From contig NZ_CP058215.1 of assembly GCF_013388255.1 (NCBI RefSeq), positions 1,426,001 through 1,490,000 of the forward strand: DNA of 64,000 bases, written 5' to 3'. Source of the DNA: Methanolobus zinderi (GTDB lineage Archaea > Halobacteriota > Methanosarcinia > Methanosarcinales > Methanosarcinaceae). Below the pieces are notes generated by a model that saw nothing but the letters and a program-made list of their open reading frames with translations, was not told the DNA's origin and did not search any database. Below, piece after piece: positions 8,229 through 21,351 of this stretch. Positions within the stretch are counted from its first letter, which is position 1. Each line of letters starts with the position of its first letter. A program made the translations under genes and the position numbers.

Positions 8229-9608
8229 TTAGAGTGCGTAGTTTTCTGGCTTGAAGACTGGAACTTCTGCCTTGAACTTCTCGAGGTTGTCGCTCATGAA
8301 GGTTTCGGACTCTGATGTGAGTGCATTGAGTTCGGATGTTGCCTTCTCGAGTGCAGCGATCTCGAACTTGGTCATATCAAGACCCTCGGAGTCGTTCAGG
8401 AGGTTGCAGCATTCTACAGCAGCGTTCTTTGCACGGAGGTAGATGTCGTCTCCGTCCTTTACGATTGCCTCTCCTACCTTGTATGCGTTGTCGTATGCAA
8501 GGATGTATGACTGTGGATCTCTGAACCTGTCGGAAGCCATGAGGAGGTCTCTGAGCATCTTCTCGTTTCCTGACTTAAGTGCAGTGTTCATGAGTGCACA
8601 GTCGTAGTTGAGGGACTCTGCCCAGCACTGTACGGTTGTACCACCGAATTCACCGTGGTATTCAACGGACTCGTTTGACCAAAGGTCACAGCACTGCATG
8701 ATAAGGTTACCCATGACATCTGAGTGAGCACAGGTGGATGTCTTACCTTCGAAGGACATTGGCATACCTGAGATTGCCTTTACGATGATGTTCTCGTAAC
8801 CACAGTCCTTACCTGGACCTACTGCGCCAGCTTCGTATGCTGCGAGTGATCTTGGAGCGGAGATTGCCCTTGCGATGATTGCGAGGGTGTGTGCGAGGTT
8901 CTTGTCAAGGAGACCCCCTGCAATGAACATTGCAGTGTTTGCCTGTGCACAGTCTGTGTCACCAGCAGCGGTTACTCCCTTCTTCTGTGCGATACCTGCG
9001 ATCTCCTGCCAGAGGAACTCCATGTCCATGGTACCGAGACAGCCGATTGCGTAGAGCATACCTGCAATATCGTTCCTGAGTACTGCATAGTCGAAGATCT
9101 CCTTTCCGCCCATTGATTCGATGGACAGGAGGTCTGCGCCGCTTTCTGCGACCTGCTCGAAGGACTCTACAACGACGTTAAGCTTGTCGCCTCTGAGTTC
9201 CATGAACTCCTTGTTTTCCCTGATGTCACCAGGAGTGTGTCTGAGTGCACATTTGATACCATATTCTTCATAGTATTCTTCCATGATGGTCTTCTGTGCG
9301 TGTGCGACAGCTGCTCCCCACTCAGGATGGTTGGTCATCTGCTGGACGTGCTCTGTCTCGAGTACTACGGACGGGAAACCGACCTGGACCATTCTTGACA
9401 TGATGTCTTTTGTGATCCTCTGGTACTCGTTTACGAGCTTCTCCTTTGTCTCTCCTGCTTCTGGCCTTGGTGCGTAGTTGACTTCTGCGGTTGTGTAACC
9501 TGCACCGATCTCAAGACCGAGACCTGCTTTTACAGGTTTCTTTGCGTTACCGAAGACCATCTCATCAGCATCTGCATATGCCATTTCTGTGAATCTGTTT
9601 ACTGCCAT
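8229..9608 (-). CDS. mtaB: Methanol:corrinoid methyltransferase MtaB
   Basis: 459 residues from ATG at 9608, which follows AAGGTGA by 5 bases; a GTG nine bases earlier lies inside the ribosome binding site. MtaB activates methanol and methylates Co(I) in MtaC, the first step of methanol methanogenesis in the cytoplasm. The zinc ligands known for Methanosarcina barkeri MtaB fall at the same numbers here: Glu164 (SIESMGG), Cys220 (DTDCAQ) and Cys269 (GKDCGY). No in-frame amber codon is present, as expected for MtaB. It follows mtaC directly and ends at a strong hairpin. Confidence 0.98.
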   Translation of the reverse strand: MAVNRFTEMAYADADEMVFGNAKKPVKAGLGLEIGAGYTTAEVNYAPRPEAGETKEKLVNEYQRITKDIMSRMVQVGFPSVVLETEHVQQMTNHPEWGAAVAHAQKTIMEEYYEEYGIKCALRHTPGDIRENKEFMELRGDKLNVVVESFEQVAESGADLLSIESMGGKEIFDYAVLRNDIAGMLYAIGCLGTMDMEFLWQEIAGIAQKKGVTAAGDTDCAQANTAMFIAGGLLDKNLAHTLAIIARAISAPRSLAAYEAGAVGPGKDCGYENIIVKAISGMPMSFEGKTSTCAHSDVMGNLIMQCCDLWSNESVEYHGEFGGTTVQCWAESLNYDCALMNTALKSGNEKMLRDLLMASDRFRDPQSYILAYDNAYKVGEAIVKDGDDIYLRAKNAAVECCNLLNDSEGLDMTKFEIAALEKATSELNALTSESETFMSDNLEKFKAEVPVFKPENYAL

Positions 9609-9621
9609 TATTATCACCTTC

Positions 9622-10383
9622 TTAGTGTTTGTGGAATTCTGCTTTCAGTGCTTCCAGATCCTTTCCTGCGAGGATTGCATCAGCCATCTTTGGTGCGTCT
9701 GCTGCCTCTTCACCGTATACACCAAGTGCATAGGTTGATACGAAATCCTGGTTTACAGCTCCGCCACCGCACTGGAATGGAAGTTCGAGTCCTGCTTCAA
9801 TGAGCCTGTCGTTTACTTCCTTGAATGCGTACATTGTGGTTGTCATCAGTGCTGTTCCGGTAAGCATCATTGGCTTCTCTTCTTTGACAGCTGCGATAAC
9901 TTCATCAGCTGGTACGTCACGGCCAAGGTCTACTACTTCATAGCCGTTTGCTCTGAGAAGTGCTGCAACGATTGACTTTCCGATGTCGTGTACGTCACCT
10001 TCTGCGACGTGGACAACGACCTTTCCTTTTACCTTTGGTGCTGCACCCTGGTCCTTACAGTACTCGATACCGTCGAGCATTGCATCTGCGGACATCATAA
10101 CGTTTGGAAGGAAGATGACACCCTGGTCGTATAAGTCTGTTACAACTTTCATACCGACCATAAGAGCATCGTCGATAAGAGTGATTGGGTCCTTTCCTGC
10201 TTCGATCGCTGCCTCAAGACCTTCAACAACGTCGTCTTCTTCACCCTCGAAAATCGCTTCTGCGATCGGACGGATGAGCTCATCCTCTGGGTAGAGTTCA
10301 GCTGCTGCGTCCTCAGGGGTCATTGATTGTTCCATTTTTACGTTATACCTTATTAGTATGCCTTCTTTGTCTACTATAAGCAT
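9622..10383 (-). CDS. mtaC: Methanol-specific corrinoid protein MtaC
   Basis: 253 residues. Residues about 20-110 are the four-helix cap, about 120-250 the B12-binding Rossmann domain. The cobalt ligand motif is E-G-D-V-H132-D-I-G-K, followed by GTALMTTTMYAFKEV and QCGGGAVNQDF. MtaC carries the methyl group from MtaB to MtaA and coenzyme M. A canonical AAGGAGGT precedes the ATG, and mtaB begins 13 bases after the stop. Upstream is a leader of two hairpins around a conserved core (see that entry). Confidence 0.98.
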   Translation of the reverse strand: MLIVDKEGILIRYNVKMEQSMTPEDAAAELYPEDELIRPIAEAIFEGEEDDVVEGLEAAIEAGKDPITLIDDALMVGMKVVTDLYDQGVIFLPNVMMSADAMLDGIEYCKDQGAAPKVKGKVVVHVAEGDVHDIGKSIVAALLRANGYEVVDLGRDVPADEVIAAVKEEKPMMLTGTALMTTTMYAFKEVNDRLIEAGLELPFQCGGGAVNQDFVSTYALGVYGEEAADAPKMADAILAGKDLEALKAEFHKH

Positions 10384-10466
10384 TCTAAACCTCCTTCAAT
10401 AGGTTTTATCTATCAGTTGAGCCTGGAAGGCTCAATCCAATCTACACAAAAGGTTCTTGTGAACCT
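10384..10466 (-). promoter_or_regulatory. Structured leader of mtaCB with repeated core sequence
   Basis: In RNA order: hairpin AGGTTC-ACAA-GAACCT (10466-10451), then the core TTTGTGTAGATTGGA, then hairpin TTGAGCC-TTCCA-GGCTCAA (10435-10417), then AAGGAGGT and the ATG. The first hairpin can be replaced by CACAA pairing with TTGTG of the core, so two alternative folds exist. The 22 bases at 10432-10453 recur exactly at 13857-13878. Not a cobalamin riboswitch as far as I can tell, since no B12 box is seen. Confidence 0.55.
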
Positions 10467-10486
10467 CTATCAGGAAGAGATAGTAA

Positions 10487-10530
10487 TCATATATAAGTAT
10501 GGCGGATATAGTATACTCATATATAAGTAT
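10487..10530 (-). promoter_or_regulatory. Tandem TATA-bearing direct repeats of the mtaCB promoter
   Basis: TCATATATAAGTAT occurs at 10487-10500 and 10517-10530, exactly 30 bases apart. Read on the minus strand each contains a TATA box. The proximal copy would start RNA near 10465, exactly at the first leader hairpin. They may be two promoters, or promoter plus operator for a methanol-responsive regulator. Confidence 0.5.
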
Positions 10531-10938
10531 ATCTGTCAAATACATCAAAAATAAGATTTACAGTTACATATAAAATAAAGCCTATTGCTTTTTATTTTTA
10601 TAACTTTTTATGTTTAATCCAAGAAATACATATTGTAGTTTGCATAAAAACTTATATATCATCAGCTGGCATGTGTATTTTCTAAAACAATATAAATAGA
10701 TATAGTTGACAAAATATATACTATAAAATACTTATCAAATAAAACAGCTTCAGTAGCAAGCTTATAATAATTACACAAATAGCATATCCAGCAACATCTG
10801 TTTTAAGGAGATAGTTTTATATAGTATATTCAATCCTGATTTTAAGACTAGGTAAAGATCTTAATAGGAAGGCTGAATAAAAACAATAGAAGAAATAAAG
10901 GATTCGAGTATGCTACAACAGGATCCGATAAATTATTT
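10531..10938. other. AT-rich gap upstream of the mtaCB promoter
   Basis: About 400 very AT-rich bases without a coding frame. Several further TATA-like stretches (for example near 10690 and 10720) are present. Related mtaCB operons have long upstream control regions, so this is probably regulatory, but no specific site is recognised. Confidence 0.4.
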
Positions 10939-13740
10939 TTATTGTGATGTCCTGGACAGGAGTATAACAACTTCCATCCCGTCAAGTTGTCCCCTGGTAC
11001 ATTTTGTTCCCACAGGGACAATTGTCTTGTCCCGGGCCTCAAAGGGAATATCATAAAATGGCATCTGACCCGCAATTACATCGCCAAGTACGGAAGCTGC
11101 TTCAAGTAATTTTTTCTGCGGATGCAGGTTCAGTATATTCATACCCTTTAGCTCATCAACGGAATAGCCCAGGAGATCGCAGGCAAATGGATTAACGTAG
11201 AGAATACAGCCGTCATCATCGACCATGAATACAAGGTCCTCGATGGAATCAAAAATCACCTGCAATCCATGAAGATCCTTTACAGAATCCGCCTGCTCTC
11301 TCATACGACCTATAACCGGACCTATCTGTGCAGTCACCGTTTCAAGGGAATTGCGTATACCAAAGGGTATTTCATATGCACTGTGAGAAGCAAGCATCAG
11401 TACGGCCACAGTTTCCTCACTGTGCTTTATCGGGATGATGGCTGTAGCCTCAAGTCCCTCATAGCTCAGGTTGTTTCCAGGTATCATGGAATTGAGCTCA
11501 TAATATCGCGTATATAGCGGATAATCCGTCATCAGGACCCTTGCATTGACAGAATTGGCAGCATAATGACGAGTGCTCTTCACAAATCGTGAGGAAAAGC
11601 CCCTGTGAGCTACAATGTTCATGTCTCCCGTGGACTCGTCTATCAGATACAATGCCCCGCAATCCAGGTTTTCCATTCCCGTGGTGAATTCAAGTAACTG
11701 GTAGAAAATATCACCGGGATCTCCGACCGGACTGAAGAAGGTGCCTGGATCGGAAACAAGGTGCATGAAGTTTTGCACGTTCTTACGTTCGGTAATATCG
11801 ACTATGATACCCTGGATATACAGAATATGACCTTCAGCATCTCGCTTTACCACAGACCTCTCATCCACCCATCTGATCTCACCGGATTTTGTAAGAATAC
11901 GATACTCGAAGGAAAGATTCTCTTCTCCCTTTGCCCACACTTCAGGTTCGGTGGTAAAACGTTCCAGGTCAGAAGGATGCACTATATCCCCGTAGAGGAT
12001 ATTTCCGGAGATCAGATCATCGGCATCGTATCCGAACTGTGAGATATTCTCGGAAACAAAATCCACCCTCCAGTCCTCTTCAGGTCTCCAGAAGAATACA
12101 ACCGCAGGGCTGCTTTTGATCACAGTTTCCATTACCTTCTGAACCTCAATGAGTTCAAGAAGTTTTTTCTCCTTATTCTTCTGGTCTGTGATATCCCTGA
12201 GAATTGCCATTATGGCAGGTTCGCCTTCGTGTTCGATTATCGAGGAGTTTATTTCCGCCGGGGTATTGACCCCTTCTTTTGAAAGCAGTTCGATCTCATA
12301 CTTCAACGGAGTCTCGCGGTTCTTTTCCAGGCTTCTCCTGAAACGCCTCAGGATGACCTGTCTGTATTCCAGTGGCAGGAAATTCTCGAACGGCCTTCTG
12401 AGTATTTCATCCTTGGAAAAACCGGTTATCTCGCAGAACTTCATATTTGCGAAGACAAGGATTCCGTTGCGAACTATAATGATACCGTCATTACTTTTCT
12501 CGACAAGGGTTGAATATTTCTTTTCGGAATCTCGCAATTCCTTCTCTGCCTGCTTTCGCTCAGAGATATCCCTGACATTCATCATAATTGAAGGTCTGTC
12601 CTCATGATGGATGAAAGAAAGCCCGATCTCCGCCGGCAGAAGATCTCCCTTTTTGGTATGGAACTCGATTTCATTGCTGCGTCGAAGACTTCGCCTGTCC
12701 TTGAGTACTTTCTTGAACCTCTTGGACACCATCCGCCTGTATTCCTCGGGGACATAGTCCAGAACTTCACTGCCCAGCAGATCATCCTTTGAGTAGCCGG
12801 TTAGTTCTGTGAATTTCGAGTTAATAAAATTCAGTATCCCGTCCTGTATGATCACAATTCCGTCGTTGCTCTTTTCAACCAGTGTGGAATATTTCTCCTT
12901 TGATGCCTCAAGCTGCAACTCTGCTTCTTTGCGCTCGGTAATATCCCTGATGTTGAGCATTATCGAGGGTCTGGAATTGTGTACTATATAGGAAAAACTT
13001 ACTTCCGTGGGTATAAGCGCCCCGGATGAGGTCAGAAGCTCCAGCTCATTGTTGCGGTGTGGGCCACGCATGTCCTTGAGAACCTTTTTGAACCTCTTGG
13101 ACATCATACGTCGATAGGTTTCAGGAACGTAGTTTGAAAAGTCAGTGTTCATCAATTCCTTTCTAGAATAGCCGGTAAGTTCCGAGAACTTCTTATTGGC
13201 AAATCTCAGCTTACCATTCTGCAGGATGACTATCCCGTCATTAATGTTTTCGACAAGCGTAAAATAACTGTCATCCGGCATACTGAAGATTTCTTCTTCT
13301 TTCTGCGGACCATCGAGTTCTTTGAATGTCAGCAGAATATGTGTATTGTATCCTGTGCCTGTATCCAGCCCACGGGCCCGCACGCGTAGCTCTGTCCTGC
13401 TGTTACTGGTGATATGTGTAGCTCTGAACTTATCTATTGAACTACCCCGACTGAAAATACGGGAAAGAAGATGCTCTAATTTATCTTCATCCCACTGGAT
13501 GTTCTTAAGGTCAAAGAGCAAAGTTCCCCTTACTTCATCAGAGCTGACTGCAAAATTGCTACAAAACGAGTGATTAGCATAGATGATCCTGAATTCCCTG
13601 TCCAGCACAACAAAGGACTCATCAATGGAATCCAGTATCGTTCTGAAACGATCGCATTCCCTGAGAACAGGATCGTCGCTGGATACTCCTAATCCATCCA
13701 GAGCATATGTCGGATCTTTACAGGATACATCAGTTTCCAT
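10939..13740 (-). CDS. PAS(5)-GAF-PAS protein without kinase domain
   Basis: 933 residues, cytoplasmic. Domains: PAS1 about 25-135, three closely related PAS repeats (about 148-265, 277-390, 402-515; two open YSTLVEKSNDGI and the first opens YFTLVENINDGI), PAS5 about 540-655 with a PAC end (ILYIQGIIVDITERK), GAF about 665-815, and a last PAS about 825-930. No HisKA, HATPase, GGDEF or DNA-binding domain follows; the protein ends in VVILLSRTSQ. It therefore must signal through a partner. AAGGTG precedes the ATG, and TATA-like GTATAAATATTATAT lies 25-40 bases before it. It stands between an orphan mtaC and mtaCB, so a role in sensing methanol metabolism is the natural inference. Confidence 0.85.
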   Translation of the reverse strand: METDVSCKDPTYALDGLGVSSDDPVLRECDRFRTILDSIDESFVVLDREFRIIYANHSFCSNFAVSSDEVRGTLLFDLKNIQWDEDKLEHLLSRIFSRGSSIDKFRATHITSNSRTELRVRARGLDTGTGYNTHILLTFKELDGPQKEEEIFSMPDDSYFTLVENINDGIVILQNGKLRFANKKFSELTGYSRKELMNTDFSNYVPETYRRMMSKRFKKVLKDMRGPHRNNELELLTSSGALIPTEVSFSYIVHNSRPSIMLNIRDITERKEAELQLEASKEKYSTLVEKSNDGIVIIQDGILNFINSKFTELTGYSKDDLLGSEVLDYVPEEYRRMVSKRFKKVLKDRRSLRRSNEIEFHTKKGDLLPAEIGLSFIHHEDRPSIMMNVRDISERKQAEKELRDSEKKYSTLVEKSNDGIIIVRNGILVFANMKFCEITGFSKDEILRRPFENFLPLEYRQVILRRFRRSLEKNRETPLKYEIELLSKEGVNTPAEINSSIIEHEGEPAIMAILRDITDQKNKEKKLLELIEVQKVMETVIKSSPAVVFFWRPEEDWRVDFVSENISQFGYDADDLISGNILYGDIVHPSDLERFTTEPEVWAKGEENLSFEYRILTKSGEIRWVDERSVVKRDAEGHILYIQGIIVDITERKNVQNFMHLVSDPGTFFSPVGDPGDIFYQLLEFTTGMENLDCGALYLIDESTGDMNIVAHRGFSSRFVKSTRHYAANSVNARVLMTDYPLYTRYYELNSMIPGNNLSYEGLEATAIIPIKHSEETVAVLMLASHSAYEIPFGIRNSLETVTAQIGPVIGRMREQADSVKDLHGLQVIFDSIEDLVFMVDDDGCILYVNPFACDLLGYSVDELKGMNILNLHPQKKLLEAASVLGDVIAGQMPFYDIPFEARDKTIVPVGTKCTRGQLDGMEVVILLSRTSQ

Positions 13741-13830
13741 GCTTTTACACCTTGAATTTGGTTTTATATAATATTTATACTCCTTTTTAAAAGAAAAAAA
13801 GAGGTTAAATACAAGTTAAACAGATACTAT

Positions 13831-13899
13831 TTGCTCACACCGATCAGACGCTTCCTTCAATCCAATCTACACAAAAGGATCTGTCTTGGGTGTGAGCAA
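13831..13899 (-). promoter_or_regulatory. Long hairpin carrying the same 22-nt core as the mtaC leader
   Basis: Perfect 11-bp arms TTGCTCACACC (13831-13841) and GGTGTGAGCAA (13889-13899) enclose weaker inner pairing (AGAC/GTCT, TCC/GGA) and a loop with TTTTGTGTAGATTGGATTGA. The 22 bases 13857-13878 equal 10432-10453. On the minus strand it lies after the orphan mtaC stop and before the PAS/GAF promoter; a T-rich run follows about 25 bases on, so it could also end the mtaC2 transcript. Confidence 0.55.
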
Positions 13900-13942
13900 C
13901 CAGAAACATAGCAGGAGCAACACACCACGTCTTTTTTAAGCT

Positions 13943-14707
13943 TCATTTGCTGTGGAATTTTGTCCGCAGATCATCAATTGTAGCATTTTTTAACACTTCA
14001 TCGGCTATTTTCGGAACAATCGCCGCATCATCACAGTAAATGCCAAGGTCATAGCGATCTACAAAGTCCTGGGTGACAGCACCTCCGCCACAGATAAAAG
14101 GGATATTGACCCCATTATCGAAAAGCCGGTCCCTGATCTCCTTGAAAGAGTACATTGTTGTGGTCATCAGTGCAGTACCGGTAAGCATTATGGGTTTATT
14201 TTCAATAACAGAGCCTACTACCTCATCTACAGGAACATCACTCCCGAGATCTATCACTTCATAGCCATTGGATCTCAAAAAGACCGTGAGTATCTTCTTG
14301 CCGATGTCATGCACATCACCTTCGACAACAAAGGAGACAACCTTTCCTTTATACTCATGGTTTCGGCCGGATATTTTCTTACAATACTCTATCCCGTCTG
14401 TCATTGCTTGTGAAGATATCATAACATCGGGCAGGAAAAGCATCCCCTCTTCATATAACTGGGAAACTATATCCATTCCGACTATGAGCGCATCATCTAT
14501 CAGGTCAATTGCATCCTTCCCCTGATCCACGGCCTTCTGCAGTGTCATAATCACCTCGTCCTCGTCACCTTCAAAAACAGCTTCCACGATATTGCGGATC
14601 AGCTCATCTTCGGGAAACATCTCTCTGGCAACATCATCAGGAGATCTTTCACTTTCAAGCTTGACGTTGTATCTGACCAGGATAGAAGATGGATCGATAT
14701 CAATCAT
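13943..14707 (-). CDS. Orphan MtaC-like corrinoid protein
   Basis: 254 residues, collinear with MtaC over its whole length: helical cap (PEDELIRNIVEAVFEGDEDE), cobalt-binding E-G-D-V-H133-D-I-G-K, GTALMTTTMYSFKEI and CGGGAVTQDF. All corrinoid-binding features are kept. No mtaB follows; instead the next gene is the PAS/GAF protein and then a complete mtaCB. It may serve another methyltransferase or act as a sensor of corrinoid methylation. Its sequence diverges clearly from the neighbouring MtaC, so this is not a recent duplication. Confidence 0.92.
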   Translation of the reverse strand: MIDIDPSSILVRYNVKLESERSPDDVAREMFPEDELIRNIVEAVFEGDEDEVIMTLQKAVDQGKDAIDLIDDALIVGMDIVSQLYEEGMLFLPDVMISSQAMTDGIEYCKKISGRNHEYKGKVVSFVVEGDVHDIGKKILTVFLRSNGYEVIDLGSDVPVDEVVGSVIENKPIMLTGTALMTTTMYSFKEIRDRLFDNGVNIPFICGGGAVTQDFVDRYDLGIYCDDAAIVPKIADEVLKNATIDDLRTKFHSK

Positions 14708-14925: not shown

Positions 14926-15294
14926 TTATTTTGCGTCGCTGTTCTCCTCCCACAGCCCGAAAATATTGTTTTCCGTATCAAGACAGATCGCAAGATATCC
15001 CCAGCCCGGCACAGGCATCCTGTTCAAGATCTTTCCTCCCGCATCAGTGACCTTTTCTGCATATTCGTCCACAGAAGGTACTCCGATGTAGCCGGCCATT
15101 CTCTGTTCAGGAGATCCTCTGTGACCCATACCGCCCCTTACACCCTCTTCACCATCAAGACCTGTGGTTTCAATGAGATAGTAGTCCTCCATTCCGGGAG
15201 GGTGTTCGAAGTTCCAGCCAAAAAGTCCGGAATAGAATTCCTTGGCGCGCTCAAGATCATCTGCAGGGACATCAAAGTGTACTATAGTCGGCAT
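14926..15294 (-). CDS. VOC/glyoxalase-fold protein
   Basis: 122 residues built of two beta-alpha-beta-beta-beta units: VHFDVPADDLERAKEFYSGL then FGWNFEH at the N-terminus, and YIGVPSVDEYAEKVTDAGGK with FGLWEEN at the end. Metal-ligand positions are H6 and a Glu near the C-terminus (GLWEE). The family includes glyoxalases, dioxygenases and resistance proteins; the substrate is not evident. It appears monocistronic and is followed by the Rsm22-like gene on the same strand upstream. Confidence 0.85.
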   Translation of the reverse strand: MPTIVHFDVPADDLERAKEFYSGLFGWNFEHPPGMEDYYLIETTGLDGEEGVRGGMGHRGSPEQRMAGYIGVPSVDEYAEKVTDAGGKILNRMPVPGWGYLAICLDTENNIFGLWEENSDAK

Positions 15295-15349: not shown

Positions 15350-16840
15350 TTATCCTTCCACAGCTTCAACAAGACTGCCCTTGCTGAGTAGCAAATTGTA
15401 GGAATCGTTAGCTTCGTTATACCTTACAAGTATATTCTGGAATGATAACAGACTTCCGTACCTGGCATTTGTAATGACCTCATTTTCAGGGGTCAGGTTA
15501 TGGCCGGGAAGAACGGCATATACCGGTTTTGCAGATGTGCCGTCACATATCTTGAACAGGTGGTTCTTTTCGTCACCCAGATCCCCTGACATAAGTGAAG
15601 CTATAACGTTAATTCGTTTGCCTGTATGCTTTCCGAGTTTGGAGAGCTTTGCAAATTTAGCCTTGGGGGAAACCCTGTACTTTATGCGTGTGAGATTATC
15701 CTTACGCAGGATAACATATGTGTACTTGATATCAAGATTGATGTAGCGGTAGGGTTCATCACATTCTGCCAGCCTTGTCATAAGTCTTGTCGGATCGATG
15801 TCCTCTTGCTGTTCAAAACTCCAGCAACCCTGGGGATTGCAGCCGGAGCCCCATATAAAAGAACAAGGACTGTATATCCCAAGACCCATAACCTTTAGAC
15901 TGATAGCAAGTCCCCTCATTTCAGTGGAATTGACCTTGTCAGCGGGCTCAATTATCAGAATGCTGCCATTCTGGTTGAGCTTTTCAGACATTTCTTTTAC
16001 AAGTTCGGCCTTTTCTGAATTTGATAGGTCCTTTATCTCATTCAGTACATTTGAAAAGACCATCAGGTCGATATTTTCCGGCAGTTTGCCAACATCCAGT
16101 TTTTTAATGTCGATCTTTTCAGGTTCCCTGACATCAACTTTATCCTTTATCCCGGCATATTCAGGTACCAGGAAGTTATATGCCTCGATATTCTCATCAT
16201 ACATTTCTATGGAGTGCACAAGTGCCTTATTGTCTTCCAGCCGGTTATAAAGGTCAGTGATAGCCAGAGGAACTGTTCCGGGCCCGGAGCCTACATCCAG
16301 TACTTTCATGCGCTTTTTTAGCAGGCCATCCTCTGCCATACCATACAGGATATGCTGGAACTGCACGAAGTATACCGGAAACTGGTATGCAAGGTATCCG
16401 AGGATATCATAACCCTTTTCATAACTTATATTGCGAGATCCTTTACTCTTCCAGTAATCAGCCTTCTGGGAAACAACAGCTTTTCTGATCCTGTCAAGTA
16501 TAACCGGGTCATCCCAGTCCTTACCTGTCTTTTTTTCTATAAACTGCTCGATGAGTCTTTCAAGTTTTCTTGAAACACCTGCAGTTCGGAAGAACGCTTC
16601 ATTGATCTGCTCTTCCCTGTCACTTAGCTCAATAAACCCTCCGGGAGCACGGAACACTTTAAAATCATCATCAACAGGAACTATATCAAGTCCCAGATCA
16701 AAGAAAGATGAACTTGCTATATTGTAGATTTCCTGTGTGTACATCTCGCTCTTAATATAATTTCGCATCTCTGACAGCATGAACTCCGGTTTCATACGTG
16801 AGACGTACTTCAGTGCGGATATTATCTCCTTTTCAGACAT
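15350..16840 (-). CDS. Rsm22-like SAM-dependent methyltransferase
   Basis: About 496 residues from ATG at 16840 (MSEKEIISALK); an upstream ATG at 16930 adds 30 residues that look non-coding and would crowd the divergent promoter. SAM site: KVLDVGSGPGTVP; then NVLNEIKDLS and ILIIEPAD. A cysteine set C-SFIWGSG-C-NPQG-C-W corresponds to the cluster-binding cysteines of the Rsm22/METTL17 family, which acts on the small ribosomal subunit during assembly. The C-terminal beta-rich part (from about residue 400) may bind RNA. It is divergently transcribed from the next gene. Confidence 0.8.
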   Translation of the reverse strand: MSEKEIISALKYVSRMKPEFMLSEMRNYIKSEMYTQEIYNIASSSFFDLGLDIVPVDDDFKVFRAPGGFIELSDREEQINEAFFRTAGVSRKLERLIEQFIEKKTGKDWDDPVILDRIRKAVVSQKADYWKSKGSRNISYEKGYDILGYLAYQFPVYFVQFQHILYGMAEDGLLKKRMKVLDVGSGPGTVPLAITDLYNRLEDNKALVHSIEMYDENIEAYNFLVPEYAGIKDKVDVREPEKIDIKKLDVGKLPENIDLMVFSNVLNEIKDLSNSEKAELVKEMSEKLNQNGSILIIEPADKVNSTEMRGLAISLKVMGLGIYSPCSFIWGSGCNPQGCWSFEQQEDIDPTRLMTRLAECDEPYRYINLDIKYTYVILRKDNLTRIKYRVSPKAKFAKLSKLGKHTGKRINVIASLMSGDLGDEKNHLFKICDGTSAKPVYAVLPGHNLTPENEVITNARYGSLLSFQNILVRYNEANDSYNLLLSKGSLVEAVEG

Positions 16841-16973
16841 TGTCAATGTTGATTGTTGCAGGGACTGATAAATCTGGTGATAAGGAATGATATGGTTGGT
16901 GATAAGGGTAACAGATTGTTTCAAATACATTCAGAATCCTGAATATTGAGGAATCAAGAATAGAGGAAAACAT

Positions 16974-20354: not shown

Positions 20355-21140
20355 TCATATATCTACAATCTGTACGGAGCTTTGCTTAAAGTATTCTGTG
20401 AGCTCTTTGCCCCAGTTGACCGCACTCTCGCCGGTAAACATTGCCTGCAGATTACTGAATGAACCGTCTTTTTGTAAGAGCCTTAGCAAAACACATTGAT
20501 CGTTCAGTACAATAGAGAAGAACTGCATTTTTTCCTGATAAAGATAAAAGGTTGTCTTTTCATTTTCCAGCAAAGACCTGAATTCCTCATATTTTTCCCT
20601 CTTAAGATAATCAAGAAGATCCTCGGATATCAAAAACGTCATCTCAACACCCAGCTCAGCAAGCTCTGAGAAGAGTGTAAAGAATTTGGGATGCATGGAT
20701 GAACATATTTTCACAAAGAAGCCGGATTTCTTGGATCTCTCATGAACCTCTTTATTGAATTCAAATATTTCCGGTATCGGGGGAACTATGATTTTACATT
20801 CTCCAAGTTCATCAATTCTTTTTAAAAGGTGTAAAGGGATAAAATCAAAATAATGGGTTCCCCAGTAATCTATATTGTTATCGAAAACTTTAACCGTATC
20901 AATCAAAGGTTGCATTTTTGAAACCGTCATCTCACCCAGAGTTGTCAGTTCATAACTGTCTTCATAATGTGTGATAAGATGATGGTCTTCAAGAATCCTT
21001 ATCTGTGGAAGTAATGATTGCCTGGTTGTTTCCAGAGAACTCAGAAGGTTTTCTGTTTCCTTTGGCCCCTCTTTCAGAAGCATGAGAACATTTTTTCTTT
21101 TATCGGAAGCAAATATTACATCAAGTAACGGTTTCTTCAT
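20355..21140 (-). CDS. Winged-helix regulator, COG4742/DUF1724 family
   Basis: 261 residues from ATG at 21140 (MKKPLLDVIFASDKRKNVLM), 8 bases after AAGGTG. Residues 1-80 are an ArsR-like winged helix (NLLSSLETTRQSLLPQIRIL as recognition region), and 100-261 the DUF1724 ligand or partner domain (DYWGTHYFDFIPLHLLKRI, LLRLLQKDG). This family includes the methanol-specific Msr regulators of Methanosarcina, which control mta operons. Here it is 10 kb from mtaCB, so any link is speculative; the divergent neighbour is an AhpD-like gene. Confidence 0.88.
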   Translation of the reverse strand: MKKPLLDVIFASDKRKNVLMLLKEGPKETENLLSSLETTRQSLLPQIRILEDHHLITHYEDSYELTTLGEMTVSKMQPLIDTVKVFDNNIDYWGTHYFDFIPLHLLKRIDELGECKIIVPPIPEIFEFNKEVHERSKKSGFFVKICSSMHPKFFTLFSELAELGVEMTFLISEDLLDYLKREKYEEFRSLLENEKTTFYLYQEKMQFFSIVLNDQCVLLRLLQKDGSFSNLQAMFTGESAVNWGKELTEYFKQSSVQIVDI

Positions 21141-21351
21141 TCCCATCACACCTTGGCAAATATGCAGCACTTATCCCCAACAATTAAAGTATGTAAATGG
21201 AACTATTTATAGAAAACTGAACATTTTTAATGTCGATTATATTGTATTTTGTTTTTATAAGAGATATTGACCATGAATATCCAACAATACATTTAAATAA
21301 AAGGTATCAACGAATATGAATATAGCATTTCAATATATTTTGAATCAGATC

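Follow-up and report, generated by a model that had tools for sequence, protein, structure and literature searches.

Methylotrophic methanogens need to sense which methyl compound they meet. In Methanolobus zinderi, a gene for an MtaC-type corrinoid protein without an adjacent methyltransferase gene lies close to a gene for a PAS/GAF protein and to an mtaCB operon, which raises the question of what such an orphan does there. An earlier note on this DNA had offered two answers: that the orphan reports its methylation state to the PAS/GAF protein, which would control mtaCB through a partner, or that it serves an MtaB elsewhere. We analyzed the locus within a window of 64,000 nucleotides (contig NZ_CP058215.1, positions 1,426,001 to 1,490,000 of the forward strand); the genome is one contig of 2,704,953 bases.

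Gene organization of the locus

The features of the locus are listed below in window positions, with the evidence for each.

13943–14707, minus strand: orphan mtaC2, MtaC-type methanol corrinoid protein, 254 aa, without mtaB partner (ORF, NCBIfam MtaC equivalog, 2i2x_B, tree, selection)
13828–13901, minus strand: RNA-like element m1, between mtaC2 and the PAS/GAF gene (CM R1 match, covariation, fold z -2.7)
13857–13878, minus strand: 22-nt sequence CCTTTTGTGTAGATTGGATTGA common to both elements, copy within m1 (repeat search)
10939–13740, minus strand: PAS/GAF protein gene, 933 aa, six PAS and one GAF (Pfam, AlphaFold model, 26-member alignment)
10490–10497, minus strand: TATA-like box CTTATATA of mtaC1, approximately 52 nt upstream of the m2 core
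10381–10471, minus strand: RNA-like element m2, mtaC1 5' leader (CM R2 match, P1/P2 compensatory changes)
10432–10453, minus strand: 22-nt sequence CCTTTTGTGTAGATTGGATTGA, copy within m2 (repeat search)
9622–10383, minus strand: mtaC1, catalytic methanol corrinoid protein, 253 aa (ORF, NCBIfam MtaC equivalog)
8229–9617, minus strand: mtaB1, methanol:corrinoid methyltransferase, 462 aa, outside the interval 9622–14707 of the earlier note (ORF, domain match)

The order described in the earlier note, with an mtaC-like gene, a 933-aa PAS/GAF gene lacking an output domain, mtaC and mtaB on the minus strand, was borne out by the open reading frames and Pfam matches. The genome holds two mtaB genes, one in this locus (8229–9617) and one (C1:805344-806711) in a second mtaCB operon at C1:805344-807487, each with its own mtaC. 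There is no mtaB beside the orphan; the gene that follows it, approximately 203 nt downstream, encodes the PAS/GAF protein.

Upstream of the orphan, on the minus strand, are an Rsm22-like methyltransferase gene (15350–16930) and a glyoxalase-fold gene (14926–15294), and one or both are also found at this place in many other Methanolobus genomes. A corrinoid-protein gene elsewhere in the genome (L015, G000 C1:189963-190616) has one in-frame TAA and may be broken.

The arrangement mtaC2, PAS/GAF, mtaC1, mtaB1 was found in 23 of the 23 Methanolobus loci examined, which represent all genomes carrying the locus, and the PAS/GAF gene adjoins an mtaC gene in seven genera. A lack of conserved order in relatives had been named in the earlier note as a refutation of its reading; the order is instead retained, more than by chance, as judged from the 23 loci, and the reading was not refuted by this check. 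The locus is conserved and the gene arrangement is genuine.

Origin and properties of the orphan MtaC2

In Methanomethylovorans the order is PAS/GAF, mtaC2, mtaC1, mtaB1, and mtaC2 is an orphan there too. The usual order in Methanococcoides, Methanohalophilus and Methanosalsum is mtaA, ramA, (cobW), PAS/GAF, mtaC2, mtaB2, mtaC1, mtaB1, and in two further genera, g9 and g3, it is ramA, cobW, PAS/GAF, mtaC, mtaB. The PAS/GAF gene is thus located directly upstream of an mtaC-mtaB pair in all five of these genera, and so the orphan is not so much a stray copy as the PAS/GAF-linked MtaC after the loss of its mtaB. The orphans form one clade (support 100/98) in a tree of 61 MtaC proteins, next to the PAS/GAF-linked, mtaB-paired MtaC2 proteins of the other genera. 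This topology fits a single loss of mtaB2, which probably occurred before the split between Methanolobus and Methanomethylovorans. In Methanococcoides, Methanohalophilus and Methanosalsum, where mtaB is retained, MtaC2 may be catalytic.

In Methanohalophilus, Methanosalsum, g9 and g3, ramA and m1 are separated by a CobW/COG0523-type GTPase gene (L122:12888-13931, L121:3091-4167), and such a gene also precedes the second mtaCB operon of M. zinderi (L077). A role as corrinoid or metal chaperone is possible.

The orphan scored 453.5 bits against the NCBIfam MtaC equivalog model, above the cut-off of 420, which MtaC1 also passed; the two neighbors are 58% identical, and the nearest solved structure to the orphan is 2i2x_B. 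In agreement with the earlier note, which described a full cobalt-binding motif without a methyltransferase partner, the orphan has the sequence GDVHDIGK (the DxHxxG cobalamin motif) and the lower-ligand residue H133, which is invariant. All cobalamin residues that are invariant in the family have been retained by the orphans. Strong purifying selection is indicated by a dN/dS of approximately 0.055; the dN/dS of mtaC1 is no fair standard here, its dS being lowered by codon bias. Eleven positions conserved in the paired MtaC proteins are altered in most orphans, which could reflect the lost partner or drift.

The codon index, computed against each locus's own mtaB, was 0.60 for mtaC1, 0.287 for the orphan and 0.298 for the PAS/GAF gene in Methanolobus. 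The corresponding values for mtaC1, mtaC2 and PAS/GAF were 0.60, 0.48 and 0.45 in Methanococcoides, and 0.64, 0.55 and 0.54 in Methanohalophilus. Thus, the codon usage of mtaC2 tracks that of its PAS/GAF neighbor in each genus, suggesting a regulatory rather than a bulk catalytic expression level. Taken together, the retained cobalamin residues, the low dN/dS and the PAS/GAF-like codon usage support a putative role of the orphan that is regulatory rather than bulk catalytic.

The PAS/GAF protein

Pfam analysis of the PAS/GAF protein yielded PAS and GAF matches only, spanning almost the full length of the protein. No HisKA/HATPase output domain was matched after them, and thus the protein does not qualify as a sensor histidine kinase. 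The AlphaFold model, built from 26 orthologues, contains six PAS domains and one GAF domain with a mean pLDDT of 77. Its last PAS strand, at residue 931, is also the end of the model, so that neither a kinase nor an HTH domain could be accommodated. Of the 24 genomes that were tested, only those with m1 had a strong PAS/GAF orthologue (at least 480 bits); the genomes without m1, some from the same genera, had weaker PAS/GAF paralogues or none.

A sequence common to two intergenic elements

A 22-nt sequence, CCTTTTGTGTAGATTGGATTGA, is present in two exact copies, one before the PAS/GAF gene and one before mtaC1. No further copies were found in the 2.70-Mb genome with up to 3 mismatches allowed. 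Motif matches with at most 3 mismatches in L071, L072, L074, L075 and L076 were located within open reading frames and were discarded as chance. The 17-nt 3' part is near-invariant at both sites in Methanolobus.

The cores of the surrounding elements, m1 and m2, vary together between genera: GATTGGAG is found in both elements of Methanohalophilus, and GATTGGATC is the core of both in Methanococcoides. The within-genus sum of mismatches between the m1 and m2 cores was the lowest of 120 permutations over five genera, as computed from representative, hand-entered sequences. The two elements differ in their flanking stems, and the part in common is therefore short. With such different stems, copying of one element onto the other is no simple explanation; a common binding partner is one. 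A trans-acting antisense RNA was considered and rejected, since no sequence complementary to the m1/m2 core was found elsewhere in the genome.

Element m1

The m1 element consists of an outer helix, GCUCACAYC/GRUGUGAGC, around the core GAUUGGAUUGAAGGAAG. It is located 50–76 nt past the mtaC2 stop codon in Methanolobus, and it precedes the PAS/GAF gene in the loci mapped, regardless of whether the gene upstream is mtaC2, cobW or ramA. The outer helix is paired at 85% in 27 sequences from five genera, with double changes at six of the twelve helix pairs. The covariation score was 0.195, as compared to 0.074 for shuffled alignments (none of 500 reached 0.195) and at most 0.097 for slid versions. 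An inner stem was nominally significant in some sequences only, and the claim is limited to the outer helix.

The CM R1 search identified m1 in 51 of the 112 genomes of the family, representing 7 genera, almost always as a single copy. The model, trained on five genera, also matched two extra genera, directly upstream of PAS/GAF-mtaC-mtaB, and in one non-training genus the helix is wholly re-paired (TAGGGTTCCCATCT/AGATGGGAACCTA). No convincing match was obtained among 186 genomes of the order and 393 of the phylum outside the family; a match in the distant genome G422, with an E value of 4.8e-4 over 393 genomes, was taken as chance. The stretch from the mtaC2 stop codon to m1 showed no good TATA box, which suggests that m1 is probably transcribed by read-through from mtaC2.

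Two exceptional copies were observed. One Methanococcoides genome (G026) has a second m1 (L165:7758-7857, minus strand) with no PAS/GAF or mta gene nearby, which may be either a free-standing RNA or a remnant. The m1 of Methanomethylovorans G069, at a contig end (L167:220-294, minus strand), has an altered core, GATTGGATATAAAA; no PAS/GAF match was found in that genome at E 1e-60, and decay following loss of the PAS/GAF gene is possible.

Element m2

The layout of m2 is a hairpin P1, the core, a hairpin P2 and then the Shine-Dalgarno sequence GAAGGAGG. P1 usually ends 7–9 nt upstream of the core (2–4 nt in most Methanococcoides leaders), and P2 begins at core position +9 or +10, or further downstream in Methanococcoides. 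The stems differ in sequence yet pair, at 98% for P1 and 99% for P2 with many double changes, the arms having been placed by hand in a manner that favors pairing. The fold z value was -3.8 for the part 10400–10470.

This element was identified in 37 of the 112 genomes of the family, in 4 genera. In the Methanolobus and Methanomethylovorans genomes with m2, it is always the top CM R2 match; the model also detected m2 before mtaC1 in Methanohalophilus, outside the training set (E 3e-5 to 1e-3), and before both mtaA and mtaC1 in Methanosalsum. In most loci, a TATA box lies 49–53 nt upstream of the m2 core. Since the usual spacing from TATA box to transcript start is 25–30 nt, the start is expected at approximately P1. 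A switch in which the 3' arm of P1 would pair with the Shine-Dalgarno sequence looked plausible by eye in Methanolobus; it is not claimed here, since inspection by eye did not reveal it in the Methanomethylovorans leaders.

Alternative explanations

The alternative that survives best, although we regard it as doubtful, is that MtaC2 carries methyl groups in metabolism on a minor scale, with MtaB1 or the second MtaB as its borrowed partner, the PAS/GAF protein being a neighbor of unrelated function and the RNA elements only stabilizing or processing abundant mRNAs. This would account for the retention of every family-invariant cobalamin residue in the orphan, and it fits with the two MtaB proteins of the genome and with the close orthologues still paired with mtaB2 in Methanococcoides, Methanohalophilus and Methanosalsum. 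In a cold-adaptive methanogen, the mtaA and mtaC mRNAs are reported to gain stability at low temperature from their long 5' UTRs (PMC5378194). However, the orphan resembles ordinary genes in its codon usage, as does the gene behind m1, which is not an abundant one, and the adjacency to PAS/GAF in seven genera and the co-changing m1 and m2 cores are left unexplained.

Improbable in our judgment is that m1 and m2 are not RNA elements but DNA sites for a transcription factor, such as one of the FilR1/Msr type. Candidates are available, with 34 matches to the FilR1 family (PF08350) in the genome, one of them an HTH regulator gene in the window (20355–21170, minus strand), the mtaCB operons of Methanosarcina acetivorans are under the control of Msr proteins (PMC11619418), and the arms of m1 are partly conserved in sequence (CTCACA/TGTGAG). 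Yet the stems diverge across genera while remaining paired, with G-U pairs, every mapped copy has the sense orientation relative to the gene that it precedes, and m2 starts at the expected transcript start approximately 25 nt past the TATA box, which would be odd for an activator site. The FilR1/Msr gene in the window, located 6 kb away, was rejected as the regulator of the locus because with 34 matches per genome its proximity is uninformative. The compensatory changes, G-U pairs, fixed sense orientation and position of m2 at the predicted mRNA start support the view that m1 and m2 would act as RNA; compensatory helices combined with a constant strand and an upstream position are what is expected of structured cis-regulatory RNAs.

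Least probable is a new class of riboswitches, in which m1 and m2 would themselves bind a ligand and the PAS/GAF gene would be merely another target whose product is not needed. In its favor are the conserved loop core amid variable helices, the positions of m2 before the Shine-Dalgarno sequence and of m1 upstream of the sensor gene, and the genus-dependent targets (mtaC1, and also mtaA in Methanosalsum). Against it are the common part limited to a short core, where one aptamer class normally keeps one fold, and the concurrence of m1 with the PAS/GAF gene in the tested genomes.

A proposed regulatory unit

We consider the locus to be a methanol-methyltransferase regulatory unit, in which the PAS/GAF sensor is tied to MtaC2 and the m1/m2 core is recognized by one factor, with a probability of about 0.5. 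As predicted from sequence, m1 and m2 are two previously unlisted structured RNA leaders with one binding-site-like loop in common, and it is because of them that the locus is more interesting than first described. Overlooked in the earlier note, these elements support the view that the PAS/GAF protein may bear on mtaCB.

In the proposed unit, m1 and m2 would function as RNA in mRNA leaders, and a single trans-acting factor, either protein or metabolite, would bind their common core and thereby set the expression of PAS/GAF and mtaCB jointly. Since m2 occupies the predicted start of the mtaCB mRNA, just before the Shine-Dalgarno sequence, control would most likely be exerted on translation or mRNA stability. 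MtaC2, charged by an MtaB, and the PAS/GAF protein would form the sensing arm; MtaC2 most likely tells the PAS/GAF protein about methanol availability or the corrinoid state, and the signal would be relayed via a partner. The model thus supposes transcription of m1, a binding partner, a direction of control, contact between MtaC2 and the PAS/GAF protein, and the methyl state as the signal. The corrinoid-based methanol sensor of the earlier note is a plausible and partly supported reading: selection and codon usage argue for a regulatory orphan, m1 and m2 argue for the tie between PAS/GAF and mtaCB, and the corrinoid-sensing step is one that we infer.

A more specific version, which we find unlikely, is that the MtaC without a methyltransferase is the methyl-state receptor of the PAS/GAF protein and that their complex, or a ligand, binds leader RNAs of a new class, one of which lies in the sensor's own mRNA, providing feedback. 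If true, such a loop of methyl-state receptor and leader RNA would work without a kinase or a DNA-binding domain.

Comparison with known systems

The equivalog model, the structural match and the cobalamin residues all identify the orphan as a full-length MtaC of the MtaABC methanol:coenzyme M methyltransferase system (MtaC, 2i2x). It differs from that system in having no mtaB in its operon, a low codon bias and a tie to a PAS/GAF gene.

Msr regulators carry DNA-binding domains, whereas the neighboring gene here encodes a PAS/GAF protein without one. The likeness lies in regulatory genes located beside mtaCB and corrinoid methyltransferase genes, as known for the Msr regulators and the fused corrinoid/methyltransferase genes mtsD/F/H of M. 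acetivorans (PMC11619418). In Methanosarcina, neither m1 nor m2 was found, except for one marginal R2 match with an E value of 0.04.

Control of the mtaCB isozymes of M. acetivorans through their 5' UTRs is cited in PMC3600222, and PMC5378194 cites mtaA and mtaC transcripts with long 5' UTRs; dRNA-seq of Methanolobus psychrophilus R15 has also been published (PMC5378194). These cases of leader control concern the same operons and post-transcriptional control through leaders; the available text of the two papers describes no conserved element, common core or PAS/GAF link. RNA-level control of the methanol/methylamine switch is also known from sRNA162 of Methanosarcina mazei (PMC3510493), which differs in being a trans-acting antisense RNA, while this genome has no core-complementary site elsewhere.

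Like the cis-regulatory RNAs in Rfam, m1 and m2 are predicted structured leaders upstream of metabolic genes, but neither matched any family at the gathering score; the sole near-match, potC (24.6 bits against a cut-off of 44), lay elsewhere in the intergenic region. To our knowledge, few structured regulatory leaders have been described in Archaea. Our results suggest that methanol use in the Methanolobus group may be controlled at the RNA level, and they add m1 and m2 as a candidate system of this kind in archaea. With a demoted corrinoid protein, a sensor without output domain and two related leaders, methyl-compound sensing in Methanolobus and its relatives becomes testable.
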